Of a DNA stretch of 25,404 nucleotides, positions 52-17,780 are shown in pieces. The notes under the pieces were generated by a model. The model ran no database searches, was not told the DNA's origin, and saw only the letters and a program-made list of their open reading frames with translations. Both the position numbers and the translations under genes were made by a program. Source of the stretch: Desulfuromonas sp. (GTDB lineage Bacteria; Desulfobacterota; Desulfuromonadia; Desulfuromonadales; SZUA-401). The stretch covers positions 1 to 25,404 of the forward strand of contig PKUI01000068.1 in assembly GCA_002869605.1 (NCBI GenBank), given 5' to 3'. Positions within the stretch are counted from its first letter, which is position 1. Each line of letters opens with the position of its first letter.

Positions 52-3000
52 TTAGCGGGTAAAGAGTTCGACCGCGTCGCGCACGCTCTGCTGGTCGAAT
101 TTGACACGGAACCGGATGAAGGCTCCTTCGGCAGTGTAGTCGGCAGCCGAGAAGTCCTGATCCTTGAAACCGGTAAGGTTGTAGCCAAGTGACAGCCACA
201 GGTCCTTGGCCGGGCTGAACCCGAGGGAGGCCCCGCAGTTGTAATCGCTCTGCTTGGTTTCCCAGGCGTTGAGGGTGCTGGCATGTACGCCGATATCCCA
301 GTGTGGGGTGAGGTCGTAACGGACTTCGCTGCCGAGCAGGGTGGTAAGGGCATCGTAGTTCTCATTGTCAATTTCTTCGGCGATGTAGCGGATGCCGGTG
401 TTGACGGCGAGATGGAGCTTCTTGGTTGCCCGCCAGTGACTGTTGAAGCGGTTAACAATGCGCCAGCCGCTTTGCTCGTCATTGCCGTCGTCATCGGCAT
501 TATGGATCAGATCGAGACGGTCCAGCAGCAGCCAAGTGCGATGTTCTGGGCGGTGCGCCAGGCCAAGGCGCAGTTCGATATCCCGGCTCCATTGCCCGTC
601 CTGCTGATCACTGTGGGCCATCCTCCCGGAGAAGCTTAAGCCTAGGTCCTCGCGCGGTTCGACGATTGAACCGGCAAAAATACCCCAGCGGTCTTCGCTT
701 TCACCTGCACGGAATTCAACGCGGTTGTCAAAGCTCCAGTTGCTTTCGCGGTAGGAGATCCCGGAGGAAACAGCGGTGTACTCTTCCGGGCTGCCGGCCG
801 CTGGCGGCTGATCTGGATGAATCGAGGAGGTAACATCTCCCGAGAGAGTCTGGCTGCGATCGAGACTGACGTCGAGGCTTAGCTTCGGGCTGACCTGGAA
901 GCTCTGGCTGAGGCCGAGGTTGGCAAAGCTGCGACGACTGTTTTCGCTCAGCTGCTGTTCCATGGACGTGCGCACCTGGGCCCCGTCCCACGGAGAGGCG
1001 CGGAAACCGACACGGGTTCCTTCGGTGTCGGCTCTTTCGCCCTGGGTAAACTCCTGCTGCGCAAAAAGTGTTACTGCCGAGGTCAGGCGGTATTCGCTTC
1101 CAAGGAGGGTACGGGTCGGGTAGTCTCGGTTGTCGTTGTTGCCCAGAGACTGTTCATGCCGTCCAGTGAGGGTCAGTCGTTTGCTAATCTTCCAGTCTCC
1201 TCCAATAAAGACCTGGTCGGAGATCTCTTCTTTGCCATCTGTCTGTTTGTCCCGGGCGTGGCGCAGCCCGGTGCTCAAAGTGTAGAGTTCCTGCTGGTAG
1301 CCGATGCCGGTTTCGCCGACCCAGCGCTGGGTATCGCTGCTCAGGTTGTCTTGAGAGAACAGCTCGGCGTCGATGCTCAGGTGTTCGGTGAGCAGAGTTC
1401 TGATGTCTCCGCCAATTTTACGTGTGGCGACTTCACTGCTGGGCTGGTGTCCTAGCCCGAAGTTTTCCTGTTGTTCGCGCGCATAGAGCCGAGCCTCGGT
1501 TCCGGGATGGCTGTAGGTCGCCTCACCGAGCCAGGCATCACCGGAGAGTTTTCCAGATGGGGATTCGGTCTGAGAGGTTGCCCACTCCCCCTTGATGGTC
1601 AGATGTTCATCGATGTGCAGTGCCGTATCGATGCCGTAGAGATCTGACACGACGGTGTCGGCCCCTTCATGTACCCCTGAAAAGCCAACCTCGAGTGTAT
1701 CTCCTAAGGGTTTCAGGTAGCCTCGTCCTCCATAGGTCAGGTCGCTGCTTGCGAGATCGTGGGTCTCGTATTCTGCTACGATGGTGATCGGGTTCAGGTC
1801 GACGTCGCGGCTGGCAATCGGTTCTTTGAAGTAGAGTGTCCCGGCCGTGTAGTCGATGTCGTAATCGATGTGACGTTGTAGAGTGTGGCTTTTCAGAATC
1901 GTTTCGCTATGGAAACGGTCGCGGGTTTCGATCACGATGGTCTCGGAGTTGAGCACCAGCGGGGCGCGGCTGAGACGGTACAGCCCGGAGGTGCCGTCAC
2001 CGGGCAGTTCGTCGCGCACAAAGCTCTGCTCGGTTTCACTGGCGAACGCTGTATAGCCAAACTTTTTGCCGAGATATTCGCTCTTGAACCCGGTAAGACT
2101 GCGGTTGTAGCGAGAGAGTTCTGTAACATTCAGGCCGCTGTTGAGGTCACCGAATACGGCATAGAAACGGTCTCGCTCGATGCGGACATAGAGGTTTTCA
2201 GCGCTGGCCGCCGCGTAGCCTTGATCGGTGGTGTCGCCGTAAAGAGTATAGTAGCTGTCGGGGTCGATCACCTGGTAGAGGCTCTGGTTGCGGCGGTCCT
2301 CCTTGTCGCTGTCGTAGGCTACGGTCAGCAGCCAGTTCCCCTTTACCTGTCCCCGGGCGAAGAACGCAAGCCGGCCTTCATCGTAGTACCCATCTTCAGT
2401 ACCGTCAGCAAGCGGTTCGACCCCGTCGAGAACCGTGTGGGTGCCGGCGGTGCCGCTGGCGAGACCAACCAGAATCCATTCGCGCTGCTCCGGTTGGACA
2501 AAGATATCCACATCGACTTCGACTTCGCCATGGCCGAGGGTCAAAAGGTAGCGACCGGACTGATCGACCGGCTCAAAGCTGGTCCAGCCATTCTGTGAAA
2601 GGTTGGCAAGGCGATCCTCAGGGCTCTGCAGGAGGTTGGTCTGGCGCACCTCAGCCGGGATCAGTTCGCCGGAGCGGACTTCGAGTTTGCTGGCAGCATG
2701 AATGGTCTTGCCCGATGCATCGCGCAGCTCAAGACGAATGCGGATCGGGGTGCGACCGTCGGCGATATTCCCCTCGGTCTCCAGAACGCGGATGGATGCA
2801 ATCTCGCCGGTACGGATGATTTCGAGTTGCTGCTCAAAGCGGGGGTTGCCGAAGGGGTCGACACCCTGTAGCACGAGGGTGTGTTCACCCGGCGCTCCGA
2901 AGTCGATGCCGACATAGGTAATGACAACGGTGCGATTTTCACGCTCCAGTAGTTTAAAACCGATACTCTCGTTGGAGATCTCCTCTCCATCAAGCAGGAG

Positions 3001-5526
3001 TTTGGGCTGCAGGCGGTTGTCGAGGCGGATTTTCACCGCGCTGATCGGATCGGCCAGCGTATCTCCGTCCTTAGCCGAGAGGATGCCAAGGGGGAGGTCA
3101 GATGGTGCTTTTGCTGCCGGGCGTCGGGTTTCGGTGGCGAAGCGTTTGACTTCACCTCCGGAGGAGATGACCTTGTCCATTTCAGGGTTGATTACAACAC
3201 GGTGCAGAACCCGCAGGTCGGTACGGCGATTGAACGCCTGGGCCTCTTCAGTGTCATCCTGGTTCAGGGGGTCGGCGGCAGCCATGCCGATGGTGATTAC
3301 CTGTTCAGGGTCGAGTTCGAGACTGGCAATTAGTTCACGTGCCACAGCTTCAGCGCGCGCTTCAGAGAGCTCGAAGTTGTCATGATAGGTCATGCCCTGG
3401 TGCCAGCGTATCCGGCGCGCGTCGGTGTGGCCGATGACGTAGATTTTAATCAGGTCGAGGAGTTTGAGCTGCTCAACCGCGTCGGCCAGGACCGCGCGGT
3501 CTTCAGTGTTTAATTCGGCATTAAGTGTTTCGAACTTCGGCTGCAGCAGGAGTTCCTGGACTTCGCGACGTTCACCTCGCGAGATCCAGATCAGGGCACT
3601 CTCCGCTGCCGGTGTCATCAATCCTTTGTCACTTTCCGTATCGAAGTGCAGCGTGGCGTTGGCTAGCATCTCTCCCGTATCGGTGGTGTCATCAATCAGG
3701 GTCCGGAAGGTGATCTGGCTGTTCCACTCGCCTGTCTGTGGTGGCAAGTCATAGAAGAGGGTGCGTCCTTCGATGACCGGGTCCATCAGGGCATGTCCTC
3801 CGAACAAGGAGCTTCCGGGGAGATATTCGGCCTCATGCGGAAGTTCAACCTCAAGACGCATGTTGTCGAGGCTGACCCCGTGACCACCTAGTAAAACAGT
3901 GTAGGTGGCGGCCTCACCGATCGCAAATGCGTTGTCCATAGCAATGCTGACTTCGCCCGAGGCCGGAGGGTAGGCGAGGTAGAAGTCTGCGCGCCATAGA
4001 GTGCCGGGTTGCAGTTCTAAAAAGCGCGCTGCCGGATTTCCTGCCGACCGTGTGTGGTCTTCGCAAAGAATCGGTTCAAGACCCTCCGGGTAGGTTGCCG
4101 GGTCGAGTTGCACGACATGGGTTCCGGGTTCCATCCCCTCTATATGGTAGCGCCCTTGCTCATCGGTGATGACGTAGGTACCGTCTTCAAGGAACAGACG
4201 GATGCCAGATAACTCCTGGTAGCTGTCTTGCTCCGAACAGCTGTCAATGGCTAGGACGCGGCCGGCGAGGTAGCTCTTGTCGGCACCGAAGGGATCACGG
4301 ATCTGGACAGCGTCCTTAGCGGTATTTGAGGCCACCGTACCTAAAGAACTGGCGACCGTCGAGCTGGTATAGCTGCCAGGTGAGATGGCGCCGACCGATG
4401 TCAGGACGGTGATCTGACGCGTTTCGAGAGGCGGGAGGTCTCCAAGCGTAAAGGTCAGGGTTTGTCCGTTCGCAGAAAGTACCGGATCGGCAATGGGCAC
4501 ACCCTCGACTTTTGCACTGTTGGCGCGGTACTGGAAGCCGCTCGGTAATGACAGGCTGACGCTGACCTGTGGGGCGAGTGATGCGGCAAGTGGTGTCGGG
4601 CTGTACGCAGATGTGCTGGCCGAGTTTGCCGTCGGGGGTGCCGGGTCGATGTTTTCGACGTCGAGAGTCAGCCCAAGCGTGTCTCCCGGAGCGACGAGAT
4701 TGCGATCGGCTTCAAGTTGCAGCCAGAGGGTTGGTGCTATCATGCCAACGACCGTGGCTGAAGCCGTTCGGGTCGTGTTGTTGTCCTGGTAGCTGAGGTC
4801 GATGCTGGAACCGGTGGGTGCGCTTAAATACCCATCGTAGTTTGTGGCAAGGTTGCTTCCACTGTAAATATAGCCGATGAAGATCCCGGTGTTTTCGCCT
4901 GTTTCCCGCAATAGAAGGTGTTCTAAGTCTCCGGTTGTTGAGACAAGATTCACGATGATGGTGTTCACTGTCCATGGTTCAAGGTTCTGGTCAGGGTCGG
5001 TCACGCTTATGACGATCAGCTCACTTTCTTCAAAATGAGTTGTCGAGGTGAGGATTCCAGAACCCGGGAGCGGATTCAGTGCAACAAAAGTTCCAGGAGC
5101 GGGAGTTGTACTGAAATCGGTTGCAGGCAGCAGGGTTCCTGATGGATCGGCGACGTGGTGGAGGAACTCAACCGTAGCGTCAGATGGATGTATGGTAACC
5201 GACACGATAGCCGGGTTGGTATCTAAGGTGAAACTTCTTCCACTTATTTCGTAATCAGCGACGGCGATATTGGTAATGTCATAACCATGGCTCATGCCAG
5301 AGGTTGTCAGTATAAAACTGCCGACAAGTAATGCCCGCCCCAGGCGGTGAATCCGTTTCGTCGCCACAGGCCGGCGGACCGGGGAGCGCAGCGTGGCGCT
5401 CCCCGATCTGTCGGATTTGCGGTTAATACCTGTCGAAATAATGCACACCAGGGCGTAGAACGCAGCGAAGACGCTGCGCACGATGCGCCAGACGGTGTAG
5501 ATTATGTAAGACAGGTACGGTTTCAC
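52..5526 (-). CDS. Giant outer-membrane protein: DUF11-like + SdrD B-like + OmpA-like + C-terminal beta-barrel
   Basis: This 1824-residue protein is probably anchored in the outer membrane and is the last gene of the DUF11 cluster. Seen in the sequence: a hydrophobic N-terminus (about 5-31), a basic linker, a second hydrophobic stretch (about 62-77), a module with the motif ETGENTGIF (208-216) that recurs in the first gene of the cluster, a DUF11-like beta domain (about 265-410), an SdrD B-like domain (about 418-515, holding C430 and C488), a second DUF11-like domain (about 525-650), an OmpA-like peptidoglycan-binding domain (about 655-775, with GHTDARR, LSEARAEAV and NRRTDLRV), Ig-like segments, then about 800 residues of alternating beta-strand pattern (about 1017-1815) ending near FIRFRVKF. 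The start is a GTG with a poor ribosome site and is uncertain. If the barrel is C-terminal, the OmpA-like domain would be periplasmic. A role in displaying or exporting the upstream secreted proteins is inference. Confidence 0.8.
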   Translation of the reverse strand: MKPYLSYIIYTVWRIVRSVFAAFYALVCIISTGINRKSDRSGSATLRSPVRRPVATKRIHRLGRALLVGSFILTTSGMSHGYDITNIAVADYEISGRSFTLDTNPAIVSVTIHPSDATVEFLHHVADPSGTLLPATDFSTTPAPGTFVALNPLPGSGILTSTTHFEESELIVISVTDPDQNLEPWTVNTIIVNLVSTTGDLEHLLLRETGENTGIFIGYIYSGSNLATNYDGYLSAPTGSSIDLSYQDNNTTRTASATVVGMIAPTLWLQLEADRNLVAPGDTLGLTLDVENIDPAPPTANSASTSAYSPTPLAASLAPQVSVSLSLPSGFQYRANSAKVEGVPIADPVLSANGQTLTFTLGDLPPLETRQITVLTSVGAISPGSYTSSTVASSLGTVASNTAKDAVQIRDPFGADKSYLAGRVLAIDSCSEQDSYQELSGIRLFLEDGTYVITDEQGRYHIEGMEPGTHVVQLDPATYPEGLEPILCEDHTRSAGNPAARFLELQPGTLWRADFYLAYPPASGEVSIAMDNAFAIGEAATYTVLLGGHGVSLDNMRLEVELPHEAEYLPGSSLFGGHALMDPVIEGRTLFYDLPPQTGEWNSQITFRTLIDDTTDTGEMLANATLHFDTESDKGLMTPAAESALIWISRGERREVQELLLQPKFETLNAELNTEDRAVLADAVEQLKLLDLIKIYVIGHTDARRIRWHQGMTYHDNFELSEARAEAVARELIASLELDPEQVITIGMAAADPLNQDDTEEAQAFNRRTDLRVLHRVVINPEMDKVISSGGEVKRFATETRRPAAKAPSDLPLGILSAKDGDTLADPISAVKIRLDNRLQPKLLLDGEEISNESIGFKLLERENRTVVITYVGIDFGAPGEHTLVLQGVDPFGNPRFEQQLEIIRTGEIASIRVLETEGNIADGRTPIRIRLELRDASGKTIHAASKLEVRSGELIPAEVRQTNLLQSPEDRLANLSQNGWTSFEPVDQSGRYLLTLGHGEVEVDVDIFVQPEQREWILVGLASGTAGTHTVLDGVEPLADGTEDGYYDEGRLAFFARGQVKGNWLLTVAYDSDKEDRRNQSLYQVIDPDSYYTLYGDTTDQGYAAASAENLYVRIERDRFYAVFGDLNSGLNVTELSRYNRSLTGFKSEYLGKKFGYTAFASETEQSFVRDELPGDGTSGLYRLSRAPLVLNSETIVIETRDRFHSETILKSHTLQRHIDYDIDYTAGTLYFKEPIASRDVDLNPITIVAEYETHDLASSDLTYGGRGYLKPLGDTLEVGFSGVHEGADTVVSDLYGIDTALHIDEHLTIKGEWATSQTESPSGKLSGDAWLGEATYSHPGTEARLYAREQQENFGLGHQPSSEVATRKIGGDIRTLLTEHLSIDAELFSQDNLSSDTQRWVGETGIGYQQELYTLSTGLRHARDKQTDGKEEISDQVFIGGDWKISKRLTLTGRHEQSLGNNDNRDYPTRTLLGSEYRLTSAVTLFAQQEFTQGERADTEGTRVGFRASPWDGAQVRTSMEQQLSENSRRSFANLGLSQSFQVSPKLSLDVSLDRSQTLSGDVTSSIHPDQPPAAGSPEEYTAVSSGISYRESNWSFDNRVEFRAGESEDRWGIFAGSIVEPREDLGLSFSGRMAHSDQQDGQWSRDIELRLGLAHRPEHRTWLLLDRLDLIHNADDDGNDEQSGWRIVNRFNSHWRATKKLHLAVNTGIRYIAEEIDNENYDALTTLLGSEVRYDLTPHWDIGVHASTLNAWETKQSDYNCGASLGFSPAKDLWLSLGYNLTGFKDQDFSAADYTAEGAFIRFRVKFDQQSVRDAVELFTR

Positions 5527-5566
5527 GTGTGTTTTTTGCCCTTCAGCGGTTGTCTTTTAACTGACC

Positions 5567-6682
5567 TTAGTCGACGGTGACATTAAAGGTCAGGTTAGCG
5601 GTGTTATTTGGAGCCACCGAGCTCAACGTGTTCCAGGTCGCCTGGATATGGGTGACAGCATCGTTGCTCGTAGGTGCAGCGAGCCATGGGCCTCCAGAGC
5701 CAGACTCTGAGTACTGAACGGAGTCGGCTGCCGGGGTTGTTGACACGGCTCCGGCAAAGGTTGTGAACGCCTGGATCGGATCGATGATTGTAACGGTGGA
5801 GGCATCCGTCGAACCGCCATTGGTGGCGGTAATCGAATAGGTTACTGGTTCGCCGGGGGCCGCGGTTGTCGATGCTCCACCATTGGCGGTTTTCGTCAGG
5901 GTGAGTGCCGCCTTGACGACCGTTACGGTTTCGATGTGTTGGGCGACTTTGGCAGCATCACCGTCAGGGGCTGCTTCCGTCGTGACGACATGGTCGCCGG
6001 TTGTGTTAGGGGCTACCAAGGTGTCCGTTGTAAAGGTGACGGTAAATTGTTTTTGCTCGCCGATAAGATCACCGGCGGACAGTGCCGGGGTTCCTGTAAT
6101 GGTAATAGTGTATGGGCCGGCGTCATCGACGGCGGTAACAGAATAGGTTGTCCCCGTTGCCGTGCCGATAACGATGTTACTGACGTTTGCGACCAGGCCG
6201 TGCCCGCTAGCTGGAGAAGGGATGGTGATAATGGTATCTGAGCCTGAGACCACAGAGCTCACCACCACGGTGGCCCCGAGGGTGACAGTTGCCGGTACCG
6301 TGGTCGACGGTGTGGCATCGAATACGGCATTGGCAGCAATGGTTGATGTAAGGTCGTAGGTGTCGAAACCGTTCGACTGGCTGGTCAGGTTGTACGTGAT
6401 GGTCATGGCCTCACTCTCTGGAACCGTAGTCGTCGATGTCGCAGAGGAGTCCTGCGTGTCGACCCAGTCGAGGAGGGGGGCCACTTCGGCGATAGTGACG
6501 GTAACGGTAGCTGATGCCGTGGTGGACTCGGTACCGTTCCAGGTTACCGTGGCTTGGTTGGTGATAACCGTGCCGACTGGGGTTGCCGCAGCAAGTGCCG
6601 TCGTTGGCATCCATGCCAGGGTGAGCAATAGGGCTGCAACGAGCAGTCCGCTTACCTGTTTAAAGTTCGTTCTTTTCTTCAT
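5567..6682 (-). CDS. Secreted DUF11-domain protein, 371 residues
   Basis: I chose the ATG at 6682 because AGGAGA lies six bases upstream and it gives a clean signal peptide (KKR..., then a hydrophobic run, ending LAAATP); an upstream extension of 65 residues is basic, lacks a ribosome site and does not look like protein. The mature protein is rich in Thr, Ser, Ala and Val and almost free of Cys. It starts with GTVITNQATVTWNG, a motif typical of DUF11-associated surface proteins, has a middle beta-rich part, and ends in a DUF11 domain beginning near ALTLTKTANGG. Its final strand (LTFNVTVD) resembles the ends of the two upstream secreted proteins. It is separated by 40 bases from the outer-membrane gene downstream and by about 225 bases from the gene upstream. 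Likely a surface or extracellular structural protein; the exact role is unknown. Confidence 0.8.
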   Translation of the reverse strand: MKKRTNFKQVSGLLVAALLLTLAWMPTTALAAATPVGTVITNQATVTWNGTESTTASATVTVTIAEVAPLLDWVDTQDSSATSTTTVPESEAMTITYNLTSQSNGFDTYDLTSTIAANAVFDATPSTTVPATVTLGATVVVSSVVSGSDTIITIPSPASGHGLVANVSNIVIGTATGTTYSVTAVDDAGPYTITITGTPALSAGDLIGEQKQFTVTFTTDTLVAPNTTGDHVVTTEAAPDGDAAKVAQHIETVTVVKAALTLTKTANGGASTTAAPGEPVTYSITATNGGSTDASTVTIIDPIQAFTTFAGAVSTTPAADSVQYSESGSGGPWLAAPTSNDAVTHIQATWNTLSSVAPNNTANLTFNVTVD

Positions 6683-6907
6683 GATGTTCTCCTGTTTTCG
6701 TGTCGATTGCCTAGATTGTCTGTTAGGGTCTATGTTCAAAATTTTTATTTGTTCCGGTTTGTCTGGTTTTCCACGATCTGGCGGCTTGCCCGTGTGCCAG
6801 CCTCGTCGCCGTTTACTGGCAATAGTCTGAACTATGGACTTATTTGCTTGTTTTAGCCTGTTCGAATGCATGGTCATGGTGAGAGCCTTTCTATATAGTT
6901 TCTTCGT

Positions 6908-7408
6908 TTATTTGACGCGTACGTTGAATGAAACGGAGCCGCTGGAGCCGGCCTCAACGGGAGACAACATCCAACGGATGTGGGTGTATTCTCCTGCCGA
7001 GGCAATTCTCTTTTCTATACTGCCGTCAACGTTGGAGACTTCGTAGGTCAAGAGAGTCGGGCTTTGATAGGTGGCCCCCTTGTCGATAGAAAACAACAAG
7101 GATTCAACGCCAACGGATGTGGCTGAATCGACGATATATTCAGTGCCTTCGGGTATCGGGTTGTCTAGCTTGACATCGTCGGCGGTTTCATCCCCTGTGT
7201 TGCTGTAGCTCAATGTGATGCGCAGGGTGTCACCTGGCTCGACCTCATTTGTTGCCAGGTAACTAACTTGTTTCCCTTCTGGAGTGTCGACGAGTATCTC
7301 CCTTTCGACGATCGTTTCGAGTTTGATTTGCCCGGCTGCTAATGCCCCGCTGGACATGATCATTACAGCTGCCAGGGCGGCCGTGATAATAAGATGAACC
7401 TTTCTCAT
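6908..7408 (-). CDS. Small secreted single-DUF11 protein, 166 residues
   Basis: The ATG at 7408 follows an AAGGAG site eight bases upstream and a typical signal peptide (MRKVHLIITAALAAVMI..., cleavage likely after ALAAG or ALA). The mature part is one DUF11-type beta sandwich: LVDTPEGKQ and EPGDTLRITLSYSNTGDE are the usual opening, DNPIPEGTEYIVDSA the middle, and THIRWMLSPVEAGSSG followed by VSFNVRVK the closing strands. It has no membrane anchor, lipobox or sorting signal. It lies 27 bases downstream of the 1381-residue DUF11 repeat protein and is almost certainly co-transcribed with it. A single-domain homologue of the big repeat protein could be a minor subunit, cap or chaperone of a surface structure, but that is inference. 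Confidence 0.82.
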   Translation of the reverse strand: MRKVHLIITAALAAVMIMSSGALAAGQIKLETIVEREILVDTPEGKQVSYLATNEVEPGDTLRITLSYSNTGDETADDVKLDNPIPEGTEYIVDSATSVGVESLLFSIDKGATYQSPTLLTYEVSNVDGSIEKRIASAGEYTHIRWMLSPVEAGSSGSVSFNVRVK

Positions 7409-7435
7409 GGTGTATTCTCCTTTTTGCGAAACTGT

Positions 7436-10400
7436 TTATTTGATAATGACCTGATAGTTGAGGGTAAAGGTGCTTGAGTTCGGCATAATGCCGGTAAACG
7501 GTAAAGACCAGTGAGCAACTCTTCCGTCACTGCCGCCCGGTGAACCACCGCCACCGTCTGTGAGTGTGATGGGGGTGGAAGAGTTGTCCTCGTAAATGGC
7601 TACAGTTGGGGTCAGAGAGCTTGCGGGCACTCCGTCGGTGAACTGGAATGGAGTGCCGTTGCCGTACGGGTCAACCTGCAAGGCTACGAAAGTGCTGGGC
7701 ATCAGGTCGTCGATGACGACGTCGGTGGCTACACCCGGCCCGGAGTTGAGAATGGTTATCGTGTAGGTGACGATATCGCCCGGTTTTGCACTGGCTGTGC
7801 TGGACATTTTCATAATCGTCAACGTTGCAGGTATTCCGGCTGCCGGGGTGATGATCGCGTCTTCGCTGTTGTTGCCGGTGTTCGGATCGTGGGCATCTGC
7901 GCTGAGGATGCTGGCGGTGTTGGTGATATTGGTTCCTTCTGTGCCGAAATCGACAGTCGCAGTTACCGTCAGGGTCGCGGAGGCAGACTTCGCCAGCGTT
8001 AGCCCACTTAAGTCCCAGAGCCCTGTGGTCTGGTCGTAGCTGGAGCCGGCCTCGGCGACATGGCTGCTGTAGGTTAGCCCCGCAGGGAGCAGGTCGCTGA
8101 CCTGCAGGCCGGTGGTGTCCGTCGGTCCGTTGTTGAAGAGCGTGATGGTGAAGACCACCGGTGTTCCTTCCTCGGGGGTGGTGTGATCGGCTGTTTTGGT
8201 CAGTACGACGTCGGCTTCCTGGATAACCGTGCTGACGCTGGCACTGTTGTTGGCCGAGACCGGGTCGGGAACGTTGCTGTTGGTTACGCTGGCACTATGG
8301 GTGATGGTTGTCCCACCGGTACCGCTGTCGACCGTGGCGCTGAGTTGCAGGGACAGCGACGCCCCGGTTGCCAGAAGCCCGACATCCCAGAGGCCGCTGA
8401 CGCTGTCATAGCTGGTGCCGGTTTCGGGGGTGGCGCTGACCAGGGTTAACCCGCCCGGGAGCAGGTCGGTTACCTGGACGGTGTCGGTGTCATCGGGGCC
8501 GTTGTTTGTCAGGGTCAGTATGTAGGTTACGGTTTCATCCACGGTCGGGGTGGTGTCGTCGATGGCCATTGACAAGGCCAGGTCGGCACCGCCGACGATG
8601 ATTGTGACCTGTGATGCGTTGTTGGTTGAGTCGGTCTCGGCTTCATCGAGGGACTGAATAAATGCGGTGTTGACCAGGGTTGTGCCGCTGGTGGCCGTGA
8701 CGGTGGCGGTAACCGTTAGGGTCACGGTGGTGTAGGCCGGCAGGACAGTATCTCCGCCGCTTTTGTCGCCGATGGTCCAGACCCCGGAGCTGTAGCCGGT
8801 ATTGCTGCCGTAATCGAAGCTGCTTGATGCCAGCGTTAGTCCGGCCGGGAGTACTTCGCTGACTTTCAGGTTGGTCGCGGTGTTGGGGCCGTTGTTGGTC
8901 ACCAGCAGCGTATAGGTGATGGTGTCGCCGGTCGATGGATTGGAGTTGTCGACGCTTTTTGCCACCGAGATGTCGGTGCCGGCGACGCCGATCAGCACGC
9001 TGTCGCTGTTGTTGCCATCCACCGGGTCTTCCTGGTCGGCGGATTGCAGTGAGGCGAAGTTGAAGAAGGTCGGAGCGTCATTCTGCCCGATATCAACATT
9101 GCAGGTGATGGTCAGGGTTTCAGTGCCTCCGACAGCGACGGTGCCGAGCGTCCAGAGATGGGTGGTCTCCGAGTAGCTTCCCTGGGTGGCACTGGAACTT
9201 ACATAGTCGAGCTGGCCGGGGAGTTGGTCGAAAATCACCACGCTGTCGGCGTCGATCAGCCCGTTGTTGGTGACGTCGATGGTGAAAATGATTGTTTCGT
9301 TGTCCTGGGGAGTGGTGTTGTCGACACTCTTGCTGATTGCCAGGTCGATGTAGCGGATGGCTATGTCTACGCTGCTGCTGTCGTTGCCGGGGTCGGAATC
9401 GAGTGGACTGGCAAGGATGCTCGCGGTGTTGCTAATGGTCTGTGCCGCGGTGCCGGCATCAATGGTGACGTCTATCGACAGTGATGCACTGCTCCCGCCG
9501 GCGAGGCTGGTTGCGGAGAAATCCCAGAGCCCGGTTGCCGAGGTGTAGGTGGTGCCGGGTGGGGCGGTGGAGCTTTGATAGGTTACGCCGGCCGGCAAAA
9601 GGTCGCTGACCTGGATGCCACTGGCACTGTTGGTGCCGAGATTTTCGAGTAGCAGGGTATATGTCACCGTGTCGCCAACATCGGGGGTCGGGTCACTGAC
9701 GCTCTTGGTCAGGCGCAGATCGGTTCCGTCGACATACAGGGTGGTTGTAGCCGTATTGTTGGCCGTAGCCGGGTCACTCTGGTCCAAGGAGGTAATGCTT
9801 GCGGTTTGGGTAATCGTCGTGTTGCTTGCCGCGTTGACGGTTGCGGTGATTTCCAGGGTGGTGCTATCGCCGCTGGTAAGACCCGCCAGCGTCCATGTGC
9901 CCGTTCCCGGGTCATAGCTTCCGGCACCAGCCACATGACTCACATAACCAAGGTCCGTAGGGTCAAGGAGTTCAGTGATGCTGATGGAGCTGGCGTCGAA
10001 GCTGCCGTTATTGACAAGTTCCAGGGTGAGAACAACTGTGCCGCCACTGTTGGGGGTGAAGGTGTCAACGGTCATGCTGAGCGCCAGGTCGGCGCCGGTG
10101 ACGGCAAGCGAAGCGCTCGCCGTATCGTTGCCCGCCACGGGGTCGGGCTGGGCATGCGCGGTGATGGCTGCACTGTTGGTGATCGTGGTCAGGCTGGTGC
10201 CGCCGTCGACTGTGACGATGATCTGGAGGCTAAGGGTGTTGCCTGTGGCAAGGCTCGCTATCGACCAGATTCCGGTTGTGGGGTTGTAGCTTCCTGAGCC
10301 ACTGTTGCTGACGTAAGTCAGCCCGGCGGGGAGTTGATCGGTGACCTGGATACTGGTTGCTGTGCTTGGACCGTTGTTGTGCAGGTTGATGGTGAAGGTC

Positions 10401-10462
10401 ACGTTTTCACCTTCGTTGGGCGTCGGGTTGTCGATGCTCTTGCTCAAGGCAAGGTCTGCTGC
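7436..10462 (-). repeat. Tandem DUF11-coding repeats (seven regular plus one divergent)
   Basis: Each unit of about 370 bases encodes one DUF11 domain. Unit openings seen in order are ADLALSKSIDNPTP, GADLALSMTVDTFTP, GTDLRLTKSVSDPTP, YIDLAISKSVDNTTP, GTDISVAKSVDNSNP, GADLALSMAIDDTTP and EADVVLTKTADHTTP, followed by the divergent ATLTIMKMSSTASAKP. Unit ends share a DPxxxNN signature (for example QPDPVAGND, QEDPVDGNN, VPDPVSANN). The repeats are divergent in base sequence, so the array looks old and stable rather than freshly amplified. Confidence 0.85.
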
Positions 10463-11581
10463 AGGCAGCGCTTTTGCCGTGTCGTTACGTGGTTCGTAGA
10501 CATCAAGGTTAGAATCTGCCGCGTCGATGTAGGTGGCGGTGATGAACTCGATGGGCGAGACCTGTAACGTTCCGTCGTTGCTGACAGGGGCAGCTTGGGA
10601 GGTGGCTACGCTTGCGGTGAAGGCGCCGGTGTCGACGCCTGTTTCGAGCAGGGTGAGGGTTTCGCTGTCTCCGCTGGGGGAGGTTACGGTAATGGAAATG
10701 GTCTCGCGCAGGGTAGGAATCCCGTTCTGATCCGCATCGTCGACCCGAATGTACAGGGTGCTTCCCGGATAGAATTCCGTAACGTCGCCGCTCCCTGAAA
10801 GGTCGGCAACGAAACTCAGGGCCCCTGTAGCGGGTAGCTCACCGTTAGGGAGGACTTCGTCGGAAATACCATCATTCAGGAGCCCGTCATAGGCAGAGGA
10901 GGCGGTTGTTCCCAAGTCGGCGGTGAGTGTCTGGGCGCTGTTGGAACTGCCGATGAACAGGCGGATCAACGAGTCGTCGGTAAGGCCGAGGGTGGTCTTG
11001 AAGACGTCGTAGGGCATGCGGTAGTCGAGGTAATAATCATCGTCTCCACCGAAACTTGAGGTTGGTCCACCGATGTCGGTCGGGGTGAGTACCTGGTAGT
11101 TGCCGCTAATGGGGTCGTTATTGAGCAACTGCGACCAGACGATGGTTTCGGCCTTGTCGCTCGGATTGCTGATGTTGGTCTTGACGGTGTTCTCGGCAAG
11201 GTAGATCTCTTCGGGGCTGGTTATGCCGTCGAGCATGATCATGTACTCGTAGTCGCCGGTGTCGCCATCGGTGTCGATCAAAAACCCCCAGCCAAAGGGG
11301 TCAAGGCCGGTGAGGGAGTTGTCGCGAGGGTCCTCGTCAATGCGGATGCGAAAATAGATATATGTGCCGTCATTGTAGAGATACGCCGCAGGGTAGGTGC
11401 TGTCGCCGACGATGTCTCGTGAGGTGGCACTGTCTTTTTCAGGGTCATCTACGTAGCCGCTATCTTTGTAGAGCGGGTTCCAGTCGGTGCTGGATGGCCA
11501 TGCGTGAGCTACCGCAGGGAGCACTGCAAACAAGATCGCAAGCCAGATCAGGCGACATATGTTGAGATTACGACTTAACAT
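7436..11581 (-). CDS. Large secreted DUF11 repeat protein, 1381 residues
   Basis: The start at 11581 gives MLSRNLNICR followed by a hydrophobic core and a signal-peptidase site (AVAHA|W, residue 27), with AGGAG 11 bases upstream; a longer reading frame to 11704 adds an unlikely 41 residues. Residues about 28-250 form an N-terminal domain rich in Asp, Gly and Tyr (motifs YIYFRIRIDEDP, WGFLIDTDGDTGDYEYMI). Residues about 255-370 form a module with the motif ETGVDTGAF (313-321), shared with the giant outer-membrane protein. From about 374 to the end there are seven regular DUF11 repeats of roughly 122-130 residues (typical units read ADLALSKSIDNPTPNEGE, TFTINLHNNGP, LPAGLTYVS) and one divergent final repeat ending FTLNYQVIIK. 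There is one Cys in the mature chain. It is the first gene of the cluster and probably the main structural or adhesive component; function is inferred only. Confidence 0.85.
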   Translation of the reverse strand: MLSRNLNICRLIWLAILFAVLPAVAHAWPSSTDWNPLYKDSGYVDDPEKDSATSRDIVGDSTYPAAYLYNDGTYIYFRIRIDEDPRDNSLTGLDPFGWGFLIDTDGDTGDYEYMIMLDGITSPEEIYLAENTVKTNISNPSDKAETIVWSQLLNNDPISGNYQVLTPTDIGGPTSSFGGDDDYYLDYRMPYDVFKTTLGLTDDSLIRLFIGSSNSAQTLTADLGTTASSAYDGLLNDGISDEVLPNGELPATGALSFVADLSGSGDVTEFYPGSTLYIRVDDADQNGIPTLRETISITVTSPSGDSETLTLLETGVDTGAFTASVATSQAAPVSNDGTLQVSPIEFITATYIDAADSNLDVYEPRNDTAKALPAADLALSKSIDNPTPNEGENVTFTINLHNNGPSTATSIQVTDQLPAGLTYVSNSGSGSYNPTTGIWSIASLATGNTLSLQIIVTVDGGTSLTTITNSAAITAHAQPDPVAGNDTASASLAVTGADLALSMTVDTFTPNSGGTVVLTLELVNNGSFDASSISITELLDPTDLGYVSHVAGAGSYDPGTGTWTLAGLTSGDSTTLEITATVNAASNTTITQTASITSLDQSDPATANNTATTTLYVDGTDLRLTKSVSDPTPDVGDTVTYTLLLENLGTNSASGIQVSDLLPAGVTYQSSTAPPGTTYTSATGLWDFSATSLAGGSSASLSIDVTIDAGTAAQTISNTASILASPLDSDPGNDSSSVDIAIRYIDLAISKSVDNTTPQDNETIIFTIDVTNNGLIDADSVVIFDQLPGQLDYVSSSATQGSYSETTHLWTLGTVAVGGTETLTITCNVDIGQNDAPTFFNFASLQSADQEDPVDGNNSDSVLIGVAGTDISVAKSVDNSNPSTGDTITYTLLVTNNGPNTATNLKVSEVLPAGLTLASSSFDYGSNTGYSSGVWTIGDKSGGDTVLPAYTTVTLTVTATVTATSGTTLVNTAFIQSLDEAETDSTNNASQVTIIVGGADLALSMAIDDTTPTVDETVTYILTLTNNGPDDTDTVQVTDLLPGGLTLVSATPETGTSYDSVSGLWDVGLLATGASLSLQLSATVDSGTGGTTITHSASVTNSNVPDPVSANNSASVSTVIQEADVVLTKTADHTTPEEGTPVVFTITLFNNGPTDTTGLQVSDLLPAGLTYSSHVAEAGSSYDQTTGLWDLSGLTLAKSASATLTVTATVDFGTEGTNITNTASILSADAHDPNTGNNSEDAIITPAAGIPATLTIMKMSSTASAKPGDIVTYTITILNSGPGVATDVVIDDLMPSTFVALQVDPYGNGTPFQFTDGVPASSLTPTVAIYEDNSSTPITLTDGGGGSPGGSDGRVAHWSLPFTGIMPNSSTFTLNYQVIIK

Positions 11582-12180
11582 TCTGGCCAGGGCTCCTGGG
11601 ATGGGGGGGAGGTGAAGTCGCCCGGCGACAAGACGCCAGTGGTGCGGTCGAATAGATGACAAAGTCGGTTCAAATAGTTGGCATATGAACCCATTGCTTG
11701 ACAATGATTTGACACACGTCTCCCTTCCCCTGCGATATCATCGAAGCGGTGAGAAAAGCATCGGTCAAGAAGTCGTTGTTTGGTGGACTGGATAATAAAG
11801 AGATCCGGATGCCCGCGTGCAGGGGTGTGTCTCGGGCCGGGCCTGATCGGCGGGAGCCATGGTGATATAAGGGCTGCCAAACAAGGTAAGTGGCAGATAT
11901 TAAGAAGGTATTTCGGGGGCATGTCTGTGCTGCTTCCCTAGTCCTGGAGCTGGTTATCCCGTTTACCCCAACCTTGTTGTGGTTGGGCACCTGTCAGTAA
12001 GTATTACTCTCTGCGTTGAGGCTTAATCGATAACAGGGAACCACGCTATGTTCAGTTAATTATATATTTGGATTTTCTTGAAGCGTTAAGGGTGCACTAA
12101 TGGTGCCAATATTACAGGGTTTTGTCCAGATAAACTAAGGGTTATTGGGTGGTTGAGTTAGATTGGAAATTCGGCGGTGG
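11582..12180. other. Gene-free leader region upstream of the DUF11 cluster
   Basis: No convincing protein gene is visible in this stretch of about 600 bases. It holds a sigma-54 motif on the minus strand (12093-12109), an exact minus-strand TATAAT (12059-12064) with no good -35 partner, a perfect 7-base stem CCCAACC/GGTTGGG with a 7-base loop (11967-11987) not followed by a T run, and a CTGCCA/TGGCAG inverted repeat near 11876-11897. If transcription starts at the sigma-54 motif, the message carries a leader of about 500 bases. I could not match it to a known riboswitch class. Confidence 0.5.
12093..12109 (-). promoter_or_regulatory. Candidate sigma-54 promoter for the DUF11 cluster
   Basis: Read on the minus strand the motif is TTGGCAC-CATTA-GTGCA, which keeps the invariant GG-N10-GC of -24/-12 promoters and differs from the consensus TTGGCAC-N5-TTGCA at one base. 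It points towards the DUF11 genes. The roughly 500-base distance to the first start codon is the main reason for caution. Confidence 0.5.
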
Positions 12181-14114: not shown

Positions 14115-14858
14115 TCAATACTCTTTGGCGAGGGTTTTACGCGCCTTGTCGACGTATTTGCTGTCGGGGAATTTGGCGTAGAGGGTGTTGAAGATATCGA
14201 CCGCCTCAGCACTCTGTCCGGCGCGCAGGTGGGCCTGCCCCAGGTAGAGGTAGACGCGGTCAAGCTCGGTAAAGGCGGGATACTGTTTTGGAATAGGGGT
14301 GAGCCGCTTGATGGCAGCCTGATAGTGGTCGGTGCGCAGGTAGAAATGGCCAACGTACAGCTCGTGCTCGGCAAGTCGAACGTTGCAGGCTTCGATGACT
14401 TCGCGGGCTTTCGTCACGCGTTTGTCTTCCGGGTAGCGGCTGGTGAAGTTACGCAGGCTCAGGATGGCATTTTTGGTTGCCGTCTGGTCGCGGTCGGCAG
14501 AGAGCATCTGCTCGAAATAGGCGATGCCGAGGTAATACAGGGCGTCGGCAATATGGGGATGATCCGGGTGTTGCTGGATGAAGCTTTCGAAGGCGGTAGC
14601 GGCTTCAAGGTAATCCTGGTTGAGGAAGCGGGCTTCCGCAATCCGGTAGTCGGCCGTCGCGGTCAGCTCTGCCGATTGATAGCTGTCGCGAACCTTCTCC
14701 CAGGAGGCGATGGCGTCCGTATAATTCTGTCTTTCGAAGAACGCGTTGCCTTCATCGAGGTAACGCTGGCCCGCCTTGGGGGTCGGGACAATGGTTTCAG
14801 CACACGCAGCAAGTAACAGGGTGAGCGCAAATATCAGCGAAAGACGGCAGTTCATCAT
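14115..14858 (-). CDS. bamD: Outer-membrane assembly lipoprotein BamD
   Basis: BamD is the essential lipoprotein partner of BamA in inserting beta-barrel proteins into the outer membrane. The protein (247 residues, or 246 if the second of two adjacent ATGs is used) starts with a lipoprotein signal, hydrophobic run then LLLAACAE, so the lipidated residue is C19. The rest is made of TPR-like helical repeats typical of the YfiO/BamD family: AGQRYLDEGNAFFERQNYTD, DYLEAATAFESFIQQHPDHP, ADALYYLGIAYFEQ, SLRNFTSRYPEDKR and GHFYLRTDHYQAAIKRL, each placed as in the family. GAGG lies seven bases before the first ATG; a longer frame begins with TTG at 14933 and overlaps the end of rpoH. It follows rpoH by about 70 bases and probably shares its transcript, which would link barrel assembly to heat-shock control (inference). 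Confidence 0.9.
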   Translation of the reverse strand: MMNCRLSLIFALTLLLAACAETIVPTPKAGQRYLDEGNAFFERQNYTDAIASWEKVRDSYQSAELTATADYRIAEARFLNQDYLEAATAFESFIQQHPDHPHIADALYYLGIAYFEQMLSADRDQTATKNAILSLRNFTSRYPEDKRVTKAREVIEACNVRLAEHELYVGHFYLRTDHYQAAIKRLTPIPKQYPAFTELDRVYLYLGQAHLRAGQSAEAVDIFNTLYAKFPDSKYVDKARKTLAKEY

Positions 14859-14929
14859 CAACGATCCTCTGGGCAGAAGTAAGCGCTCACGGTAAGGGAA
14901 TCGCTTGGGTTTGTCAATTGGACAGTACG

Positions 14930-15004
14930 TCAATCGTTGGCGGGTGCGCGCAACAGGGGCCGGAGCTTTTTCAGGGCATTGCTCTCGAGCTGGCGCACCC
15001 GTTA
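14930..15004 (-). pseudogene. rpoH: Cut-off C-terminal coding tail of rpoH beyond an in-frame TAA
   Basis: After the TAA at 15002-15004 the same frame continues with RVRQLESNALKKLR and further residues to a TGA at 14930-14932. This is the standard recognition helix and C-terminal end of RpoH. Including it, the gene would encode 282 residues plus the residue at the stop, close to the usual 284. In relatives the stop position is a glutamate, and GAA or GAG to TAA or TAG needs one base change. Confidence 0.85.
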
Positions 15005-15778
15005 GCGGCTGATGCCGTAGACATCGGCCAGCTCCTGGAGGGTGGCCGGTTCGTCGGTGAGGATACGTCGTTCAATGATTTGACGTTCCCGGTCGTTGAG
15101 GACTTCTAGGGCCTGGTGGACGTCTTCACTGCGCTGTTGTTGTTCTTGGTAGTCCCCGAGAAGTTCTTCCTGGTTGGCACGGCCATCGACCAGGGTGTCC
15201 TTGAGAGAGAAATCATCTCCGGGGACCAGTTGTGCCTCGAGTGAGGTGTCGCGCGCCGCAAGACGCATCGACATCTCTTCGATTTCCTCTTCGCGGACAT
15301 CGAGCTGATCTGCAAGTGCGTCGGCTTCGGCCTTGCCGGTCAGTTGGGCCAGGGCTTGGCGGGTCTGGCGCAGCTTGAAGAACAGTTTCTTTTGTGCCTG
15401 GGTGGTGCCGATCTTGACCAGTGACCAGCTGCGGATGATGAAGTTGTGCATGTAGGCACGGATCCACCAGACCGCGTAGGTGATCAGCCGGGTTCCGCGC
15501 TCGGGGTTGAACTTTTTGACCGCCAGCATCAGGCCGACGTTGCCTTCCTGAATCAGGTCGAGGAGCTTGAGACCGTAATTCCTGTACTCCTGGGCGACCT
15601 TGACGACAAAGCGCAGATTGGCACAAACCAGCTGCTGGGCGGCCTCAAGGTCGTTGTCGCGCTGGTAGCGGGTCGCCAGATCGTGTTCCTCTTCGGGGCT
15701 GAGAAGGGGAAATCGGTTGATCTCGACCATGTAGTGTTCAAACGAATCGAGGACAACGGGCAGGGTCGTCGTACTCAT
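15002..15778 (-). CDS. rpoH: Heat-shock sigma factor RpoH (sigma-32), truncated by an in-frame stop
   Basis: The 258-residue reading frame is a clear RpoH: region 1.2/2 (NLRFVVKVAQEY, DLIQEGNVGLMLAVKKFNPE), region 2.3-2.4 (RLITYAVWWIRAYMHNFIIR), the RpoH box (QKKLFFKLR, about 129-137), and region 4 up to TLQELADVYGISR. It then stops at TAA, exactly before the second helix of the region 4.2 helix-turn-helix, which reads RVRQLESNALKKLR in frame downstream. A protein ending here would keep core and -10 binding but lose -35 recognition. The start is ATG at 15778 with GGAG seven bases upstream. A CIRCE operator and a promoter lie upstream. Either this is a sequencing error, a real nonsense mutation, or an unusual short sigma factor; I cannot separate these from one sequence. 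Confidence 0.9.
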   Translation of the reverse strand: MSTTTLPVVLDSFEHYMVEINRFPLLSPEEEHDLATRYQRDNDLEAAQQLVCANLRFVVKVAQEYRNYGLKLLDLIQEGNVGLMLAVKKFNPERGTRLITYAVWWIRAYMHNFIIRSWSLVKIGTTQAQKKLFFKLRQTRQALAQLTGKAEADALADQLDVREEEIEEMSMRLAARDTSLEAQLVPGDDFSLKDTLVDGRANQEELLGDYQEQQQRSEDVHQALEVLNDRERQIIERRILTDEPATLQELADVYGISR

Positions 15779-15802
15779 TATTTTTCTCCATAAATCATGA
15801 GG

Positions 15803-15829
15803 TTAGCACTCTCTCCAAGAGAGCGCTAA
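15803..15829 (-). promoter_or_regulatory. CIRCE operator (HrcA site) in front of rpoH
   Basis: The sequence TTAGCACTC-N9-GAGCGCTAA matches the CIRCE consensus TTAGCACTC-N9-GAGTGCTAA in 17 of 18 arm positions with the correct nine-base spacer. It lies just downstream of the rpoH -10 and 25 bases before the start codon. HrcA repressor binding here would shut off rpoH at normal temperature; HrcA itself is not in the window. Confidence 0.93.
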
Positions 15830-15831
15830 TA

Positions 15832-15860
15832 CGTATATCAAAACGGCTATATGTTTGCAA
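15832..15860 (-). promoter_or_regulatory. Promoter of rpoH
   Basis: On the minus strand TTGCAA (15855-15860) and TATACG (15832-15837) are separated by 17 bases. The expected start point falls inside the CIRCE element, so a bound HrcA would occlude it. Confidence 0.6.
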
Positions 15861-15929
15861 GGGGAGGGGCTTAAAAACGTATTTCAGTGCGTCCTGAAGT
15901 GTGCGATTGCACACCTTTTCTGCCAGTGG

Positions 15930-15958
15930 TTGACAGCCCCCGATCCGCCGCCGATAAT
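15930..15958 (+). promoter_or_regulatory. Promoter of the crcB operon
   Basis: A perfect TTGACA (15930-15935) is followed after 17 bases by GATAAT (15953-15958). The predicted message starts about 28 bases before the crcB ATG, leaving no room for a fluoride riboswitch. It diverges from the rpoH promoter. Confidence 0.75.
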
Positions 15959-15992
15959 GGCCACCTGTTCGATCAATGTCTCTGGAGAGCTC

Positions 15993-16364
15993 ATGAAACT
16001 CCTCTATATAGCAATCTTTGGTGGCTGCGGCTGTGTTTCTCGTTATCTGGTCTCGGGGTGGACGTACACCCTGGCGGGGAGGGGGATGCCGTGGGGAACC
16101 CTGGCGGTCAATGTGATCGGCTCTTTCCTGCTCGGGGTTTTGATGGATATGAACCTGCGTAGTGCGCTGCTGAGCCCGGACCTACGCGTCGGCCTGACCG
16201 TCGGCTTCATGGGGGGCTTTACCACCTTTTCCACGTTTTCCTTTGAGACGGTGCGCTTGCTCGAAGAGGGCAGCTGGTGGCAGGCGGGGGGCAATGTGCT
16301 GCTGAATATCTCGGTGTGCCTGGTTTTTGCGATGCTCGGTGTCGCGTTGGCACGTCAACTGTAG
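15993..16364 (+). CDS. crcB: CrcB/FluC fluoride channel
   Basis: FluC proteins are small dimeric membrane channels that let fluoride leave the cell. The 123-residue protein shows the family motifs in order: GGCGCVSRY (10-18), PWGTLAVNVIGSFLLG (33-48) with the pore asparagine N40, and GFMGGFTTFSTFSFE (71-85) with the two phenylalanines F79 and F82 of the fluoride path, plus four hydrophobic helices. Start at 15993 is set by GGAGAG six bases upstream; a longer frame from 15855 begins at a TTG inside the divergent promoter region and is unlikely. It heads a tight operon with DUF190, a TerB-like protein and a methyltransferase. Confidence 0.93.
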   Translation: MKLLYIAIFGGCGCVSRYLVSGWTYTLAGRGMPWGTLAVNVIGSFLLGVLMDMNLRSALLSPDLRVGLTVGFMGGFTTFSTFSFETVRLLEEGSWWQAGGNVLLNISVCLVFAMLGVALARQL

Positions 16365-16372
16365 GGGGTGTA

Positions 16373-16720
16373 ATGAGTCGTCTGGAAGGGGAACAGACCC
16401 TGATGCGGATCTTTGTCGGCGAAAGTGATCGCTGGCACGGCAAGGTGCTTTACGAGGCGATCGTCGAGCGCTTGCGCGAAGAGGGCTGCGCCGGCGCGAC
16501 GGTGCTCAAGGGGGCCATGGGTTTCGGCGCCAGCAGTATCATCCATACGGATCGTATTCTGCGCTTTTCCGAGGATCTGCCGGTGGTTATCGAGGTGGTC
16601 GATCTACCGGAGCGGGTTCAGATGCTGTTGCCTCTGCTCGATGAAATGATCAGTGGCGGCATGGTGACCCTGGAGAGGGCACACGTCATCCGCTACCGTG
16701 CAGAGCAGACCCAGGCATGA
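16373..16720 (+). CDS. DUF190 family protein
   Basis: The 115-residue protein matches the DUF190 family, small soluble proteins with a PII-like alpha/beta fold often encoded beside crcB. Visible signatures are RIFVGESDRWHGKVLYEAIV near the start, GCAGATVLKGAMGFGASSIIH, then RILRFSEDLPVVIEVVDLPE and a hydrophobic helix (MLLPLLDEMI) followed by GGMVTLERAHVIRY. It begins eight bases after the crcB stop with GGGGG upstream of ATG, and its stop overlaps the next start (ATGA). The neighbourhood suggests a role connected with the fluoride channel, for instance sensing a small ligand; this is inference. Confidence 0.88.
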   Translation: MSRLEGEQTLMRIFVGESDRWHGKVLYEAIVERLREEGCAGATVLKGAMGFGASSIIHTDRILRFSEDLPVVIEVVDLPERVQMLLPLLDEMISGGMVTLERAHVIRYRAEQTQA

Positions 16721-17169
16721 TCGGGCGTCTGGTCGAACTGCTCTCGGGGGGACCCGCCGAAGCCCCGGAGGTGGAGCAACAACGCATCGCCGTGGCGACC
16801 TGTGTGTTACTGCTTGAACTGGCCCATGCGGACGGGGAGTTCGACGCGAGCGAGCAGCAGCTGCTCGAAGAGCTGGTGACGACCCGTTTCGAACTCGACG
16901 CCGAGGCCCGTCAGGAGTTGCTGGAGCTGGCCCAGCAGAAACGGCAGGCGAGCGTCGACCTGTATGCCTTTACCCGGGTTCTCAACGATAACTTTACCGC
17001 TGAGGAGAAGCAGGCCTTAGTCAAGGAGTTGTGGCATCTGGTCTACAGCGATGGACAGATGCACCACCACGAGGAATACCTGGTCCGGCGTATCAGTGAT
17101 CTGTTGCATATCCCCCACCGCTTGATGATCGCGGCCAAACTGGAAGCAGCCAAGGCCGCCTCGCGTTAA
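16717..17169 (+). CDS. TerB-like protein
   Basis: The 150-residue soluble helical protein resembles the TerB (tellurite-resistance B-like) family. It has two repeats of the family's acidic metal-binding type pattern: ELAHADGEFDASEQQLLEEL (around residues 34-53) and LVYSDGQMHHHEEYLVRRIS (around 109-128). Its ATG overlaps the DUF190 stop by four bases, so translation is probably coupled. Members of this family are often found alone in operons of unrelated genes, and there are no other ter genes here, so tellurite resistance should not be assumed. Confidence 0.78.
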   Translation: MIGRLVELLSGGPAEAPEVEQQRIAVATCVLLLELAHADGEFDASEQQLLEELVTTRFELDAEARQELLELAQQKRQASVDLYAFTRVLNDNFTAEEKQALVKELWHLVYSDGQMHHHEEYLVRRISDLLHIPHRLMIAAKLEAAKAASR

Positions 17170-17177
17170 ATCCTTCC

Positions 17178-17780
17178 ATGAGTTTCCAACTCCCGCATAT
17201 CATTTCCTGGGCGCACCGTTTTGCCGAAGAGATTCTTAAGCCGGGAGATCTGGCTGTTGACCTGACGGCAGGCAAGGGGCGCGACACCCTGATGTTGTAC
17301 CGCTGCGTGTCCCCCGGTGGGCGCGTGCTCGCTTTCGACATCCAGCAGCAGGCGTTGTGTGCGAGTGCCGAACTGCTGGAGGATGCAGGTGTATCCAGCG
17401 TCTTGGTTAACGATGCAGAGCGTACGGACGCACCTGCTGGCGTTCAATTGATCCACGCGGACCACGCCCGGCTCGCAGACTACCTGGACGCCGCCCCCAA
17501 GGTGGTGATGGCGAACTTCGGTTACCTGCCCGGGGGAGACCCGGAGGTGATCACCCGCTCCGCCTCGTCCTGCACGGCCCTTGAAGTAGCACTTGATCTC
17601 CTTGCTCCCGGAGGCCGACTGGTGTGCGTCCTGTACACCGCGCATCCCGGCGGCGACCAGGAGGCCGCCGCGGTCGAAGCACTGTTGGCATCGCTCTCCT
17701 CGCGGGACTGGTTCGTGCTGCGTCTGCAGGTGGGCAACCGCTGCCAGGCGCCCTATCTGCTGGTCGCTGAAAAGCGTTAA
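17178..17780 (+). CDS. MnmM/YtqB-like tRNA methyltransferase
   Basis: This 200-residue class I SAM-dependent methyltransferase has the layout of the YtqB family, whose Bacillus member MnmM completes the mnm5s2U modification at the tRNA wobble position. Motifs: AVDLTAGKGRDTLML for SAM binding (about 26-40), LAFDIQQQAL (motif II), NFGYLPGGDPEVITRS, the family signature, then LVCVLYTAHPGGDQEA and a C-terminus ending YLLVAEKR, as in YtqB. The start lies eight bases after the TerB-like gene. No Shine-Dalgarno sequence is visible before its ATG, so it may depend on translation of the upstream gene. Substrate is inferred from family; the protein could methylate another RNA. Confidence 0.78.
   Translation: MSFQLPHIISWAHRFAEEILKPGDLAVDLTAGKGRDTLMLYRCVSPGGRVLAFDIQQQALCASAELLEDAGVSSVLVNDAERTDAPAGVQLIHADHARLADYLDAAPKVVMANFGYLPGGDPEVITRSASSCTALEVALDLLAPGGRLVCVLYTAHPGGDQEAAAVEALLASLSSRDWFVLRLQVGNRCQAPYLLVAEKR

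Follow-up and report, generated by a model that had tools for sequence, protein, structure and literature searches.

Nonsense codons in a heat-shock sigma gene are known from Escherichia coli, in which rpoH165 is an amber allele. A literature search on the amber allele gave no paper with the name rpoH165 among the matches listed, although a matching case of an rpoH with a premature stop may already be in print. One candidate, PMC10697842, was set aside as not relevant. For the intact E. coli sigma-32, PMC10216364 reports that the substitutions E265A, R266A and R268A cause a substantial loss of transcription activity and weaker binding of the -35 element, that L253, a DNA contact, has a smaller effect when replaced by alanine, and that the beta-flap interface is made up of A221, L225, W244, L245, L278 and E283. 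For the delta-proteobacteria, PMC545781 places rpoH in all of the species studied there, and describes a CIRCE element before rpoH in Geobacter sulfurreducens.

The window described here is the whole 25,404-nucleotide stretch of Desulfuromonas sp. DNA, and it contains an rpoH gene on the minus strand that is interrupted near its end. The frame starts with an ATG at 15778, is open for codons 1–258, meets a TAA at 15004–15002 as codon 259, continues open for codons 260–282 and reaches a TGA at 14932–14930 as codon 283. As read, the gene (15002..15778) encodes a 258-residue sigma-32 that lacks the end of region 4.2 and is closed by the TAA, according to frame reading together with profile and domain searches. 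Behind the stop, on the same strand, lies the remainder (14930..15001), namely, 23 codons for the recognition helix of region 4.2 and the C-terminus, followed by the TGA; it was recognized by profile search and by its identity to P0002, a protein described below. The earlier note on this DNA had claimed that a TAA splits the rpoH frame and that a C-terminus of family length follows up to a TGA at 14930, and both the frame and the profile searches agree with this. The resemblance to E. coli rpoH165 lies in a stop codon within the heat-shock sigma gene, whereas the stop in the window is near the C-terminus and is known here from sequence alone.

When the 258-residue part and the 23-residue tail were searched separately, both matched the same sigma-32 profiles, one directly after the other. 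In TIGR02392 the first part stops at profile position 250 and the tail begins at 252, and in NF005143 the corresponding positions are 263 and 265, so that the single position skipped in each profile is the stop codon. The E-values of the tail alone are weak (0.019 and 0.0089), as is expected at 23 residues; however, a chance match is set aside because the same two profiles are continued in register and all 23 residues are identical to those of P0002. Because both pieces fit the same models and leave a single position free between them, the tail can be identified as the end that the truncated gene is missing. Its GC3 is 0.83, compared with 0.73 upstream, and its coding composition is thus kept.

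The window gene is an rpoH. The truncated product scored 320.6 bits against TIGR02392 (rpoH_proteo), just under the curated cut-off of 323.1 because its end is missing, whereas the whole P0002 scored 352.3 bits; against NF005143, a sigma-32 subfamily model with a cut-off of 241, the truncated product scored 315.2 bits. Region 2, for core binding and -10 recognition, and region 1.2 are present (Sigma70_r2, E-value 2e-16; region 1.2, 3.4e-10). Sigma70_r4, however, is matched only up to position 34 of its 50 positions, compared with position 49 in P0002, and region 4.2, which carries the -35 recognition helix, is incomplete in the truncated product.

The position of the stop was compared with the E. 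coli protein (PDB 8hkc chain E), which is whole and distant in sequence but can be aligned with P0002 over residues 11–277 of the latter. In the phmmer alignment, with the register counted by hand, codon 259 (15002..15004, minus strand) pairs with E265 in the motif SAERVRQLE, and this bears out the previous assignment of the stop to the glutamate of that motif. The predicted structure of P0002 is poor overall (mean pLDDT 54.6), with ten-residue blocks at 72–88 across residues 211–280, and in it the last helix, the recognition helix, comprises the 18 residues 258–275. The stop thus falls on the second residue of the predicted helix and not, as had been proposed, on the first, and the truncated product keeps one of the 18 residues and lacks 17. 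Of the E. coli residues mentioned above, L253, A221, L225, W244 and L245 lie before the stop, E265 coincides with it, and R266, R268, L278 and E283 follow it. Judging from homology, the truncated product should hardly recognize -35 elements, and the stop, if real, is likely to mean a loss of RpoH function.

A shortened sigma factor might conceivably still work, for example by using promoters that are independent of a -35 element or by modulating other sigma factors, and the intact regions 1.2 and 2 and the contacts preceding the stop (the DNA contact and four of the beta-flap residues of PMC10216364) are consistent with this. One homologue, P0060, is likewise short: this 265-residue RpoH from a Desulfuromonadales metagenome-assembled genome (MAG) is 66% identical, keeps the glutamate and includes just the first six residues of the recognition helix. 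However, P0060 may have been cut by a contig end, the other 118 of the 119 homologues besides the window's own extend at least 20 residues past the start of the recognition helix (among the matches listed, 120 of 7,997), and the three residues whose replacement by alanine costs activity in E. coli are among those lost here. We therefore regard a working truncated sigma factor as extremely improbable.

The protein search also revealed the same protein whole. P0002, of 282 residues, comes from another contig, of 12,708 bases as compared with the 25,404 of the window, is identical to the window rpoH at all 281 comparable residues (258 + 23) and has Glu at position 259. Because P0002 is whole, with Glu at the position of the stop, the stop is not fixed in the species. 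In searches with the neighbouring BamD and TerB proteins, the rows for the window's own proteins stood for a single contig each, and a contig of 12,708 bases was not among the rows shown. At least one of the two genes would be expected on a collinear contig of 12.7 kb, so that either P0002 lies in other surroundings or, at a guess, the rows for the window's own proteins were merged or masked.

Different surroundings would be expected if P0002 were a second, intact rpoH for the same protein elsewhere in the same genome and the window copy a fresh pseudogene. We hold this to be improbable, because the rows of the window's own proteins are the ones that may be merged or masked, the window copy has retained both its CIRCE and its BamD neighbour, and the relatives mostly have a single copy. 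The last point comes from a search of 136 genomes of the order (that of genome G001), in which an RpoH-level match was defined as one of at least 254 bits, the next score being 148; counted by hand from the search table, there were 85 such places in 84 genomes. Only one of the 84 (G033) has two full places, on two contigs and 60% and 58% identical to P0002, and another (G030) has an additional partial place under the RpoH-level score, covering residues 1–93 with 69% identity; these extra places may represent duplicates or contamination. Further searches for another copy found no near-identical rpoH on plasmids in 345 matched records (one at 60–80% identity and 344 below 60%, the five matches listed being 47–48% identical to the window RpoH), no exact DNA pattern across the stop site in viral contigs, and, in a scan of a genome collection, six loci 42–64% identical to the window RpoH, none of them from the species of the window. 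A related idea is that the species keeps two forms of RpoH, one whole and one cut in the recognition helix, either encoded at two loci or maintained as a polymorphism, and that the short form, in which region 2 is kept, ties up RNA polymerase and so dampens the heat-shock response; we consider it very unlikely.

Apart from its stop, the window gene resembles the RpoH proteins of Desulfuromonadales and kin, to which its named closer relatives belong. The nearest non-identical proteins, P0003–P0010, are 80–92% identical and all have Glu at the stop position, and the nine nearest full proteins (P0002–P0010) have 284 residues in P0004 and 282 in the other eight, the latter being also the length of the window gene when its tail is included; in contrast to these TIGR02392- and NF005143-type proteins, the window gene has an in-frame stop at codon 259. 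Glu occupies this position in 119 of the 119 homologues besides the window's own (among the matches listed, 120 of 7,997). In a check of the DNA at 41 loci, among which four genomes were counted twice, the expected motif was found at 28, where Glu is encoded by GAA in 20 cases and by GAG in eight, and 13 loci gave no motif match. None of the 85 RpoH-level places of the order has an inner stop and 84 of them reach past residue 259. Two of the places are partial: that in G005 ends at residue 177, and that in G009 starts at residue 73. The rpoH of G005, a MAG (loci L006 and L011), is in two pieces in different frames, matching the family model at 2–165 and 184–268, and this break may be an assembly error.

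Whether the stop is decoded can be judged from the same comparison. If the TAA were read through or recoded, a full-length RpoH would be made from the intact in-frame tail, which is the single observation in favour of this; but the conserved stop that such decoding would call for is absent, as neither the 84 places of the order that extend past residue 259 nor the 119 other homologues among the matches listed have one. Among the 17 other genes of the window picked from open frames, the stop is TAA in 11, TGA in four and TAG in two, and TAA being the commonest stop argues against its recoding as sense. Selenocysteine uses TGA and pyrrolysine uses TAG, and both are set aside because the stop here is TAA. 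A frameshift bypassing the stop was also considered and rejected, since the RpoH tail is encoded in neither of the adjacent frames (-1 and +1). In short, we give almost no credence to read-through or recoding.

A CIRCE element, the operator of HrcA, lies upstream of rpoH on the minus strand (15803..15829), with one departure from the consensus of PMC545781 and no occurrence in 100 shuffles, and CIRCE also precedes rpoH at 21 of the 41 relatives' loci, the four genomes represented twice being included. Because the element is directly upstream and recurs at these loci, the window rpoH is probably under HrcA control. The element and the promoter had both been described as intact; the former is present, and in a consensus scan the minus strand of 14830–16000 showed no promoter of the sigma-70 type. 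The downstream neighbour on the minus strand (14115..14858) encodes a BamD-like outer-membrane lipoprotein with a YfiO domain, for which the longer frame 14115–14933 was also scanned. The divergent upstream neighbour on the plus strand (15993..16364, scanned from 15987) is a crcB-like gene with a CRCB domain, and together with DUF190, TerB-like and rRNA-methylase-like genes it forms a divergent cluster adjoining rpoH (15987–17780). Elsewhere in the window (52–11704), four successive minus-strand genes encode long proteins (166 to 1,824 residues) that are rich in repeats and from their look may be DUF11-like.

A CIRCE before rpoH would fit a lineage in which RpoH function has been lost through a fixed or common nonsense allele and the heat-shock response proceeds via HrcA and CIRCE, and the order does offer a precedent of a kind. 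Although PMC545781 found rpoH in all the delta-proteobacteria that it covered, the present search gave no RpoH-level match in 52 of the 136 genomes, none of the 52 exceeding the TIGR02392 cut-off. They include a run of 44 genomes (G050–G093), of which 41 have HrcA above its cut-off; the exceptions within the run are G069 and G087, without RpoH and HrcA, and G082, without HrcA, while G081 has an RpoH fragment. This run is perhaps a clade from which the heat-shock sigma factor has disappeared. Members of the order thus seem to tolerate the loss of RpoH, and a real null allele is therefore possible, though not thereby demonstrated. However, some of the 52 genomes, which may be incomplete, hold fragments (G021, G081 and G123) or no match whatever (G069 and G087). 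More directly, P0002 is the same protein in whole form, and the tail of the window gene is undecayed, with all 23 residues kept; drift would be expected after an old loss, so that the intact tail speaks against a fixed allele. We hold a fixed or common allele to be improbable.

The best account is that of an ordinary rpoH with a TAA codon in its recognition helix, brought about by a non-fixed one-base change. It is very probable that the change is of this non-fixed kind, be it a consensus error, a minority variant or a nonsense allele of very recent origin. We infer that the change either is erroneous or happened recently, that a single base suffices for it and that the product would be inactive. 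Of the two forms, an error or a minority variant in the contig consensus is favoured, with somewhat better than even confidence, because a whole version exists, the tail is undecayed and single-base stops arise by chance when many windows are scanned. A stop would arise from 88 of the 2,322 possible single-base changes in codons 1–258 of the window rpoH, and occasional cases would thus be expected in a scan of many windows. The 17 other genes of the window that were checked are all open, however, so that the contig is not generally error-ridden, and this counts against an error. A real and very recent nonsense allele of one strain is a possible, though clearly less probable, alternative; if the allele were real, translation would end at residue 258, and the resulting sigma-32, most of its -35 recognition helix being absent, would make this a null or nearly null allele. 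Among the four readings put forward in the earlier note (a truncated sigma factor that the cell lives with, read-through, a second rpoH and a base error), the base error, or the closely similar case of a non-fixed nonsense allele, is favoured by the Glu of P0002 and by the lack of the stop in the relatives compared, while read-through and a specialised sigma factor received no positive support.

The stop in the window rpoH thus most probably reflects an error of sequencing or an ordinary mutation of recent date, and no new biology. When a core gene on an environmental contig shows one in-frame stop, other contigs from that population should be compared before recoding or the loss of a regulator is claimed. 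If the allele were nevertheless both real and fixed, it would represent a fresh loss of RpoH in an order in which other genomes seem to lack RpoH yet keep HrcA.
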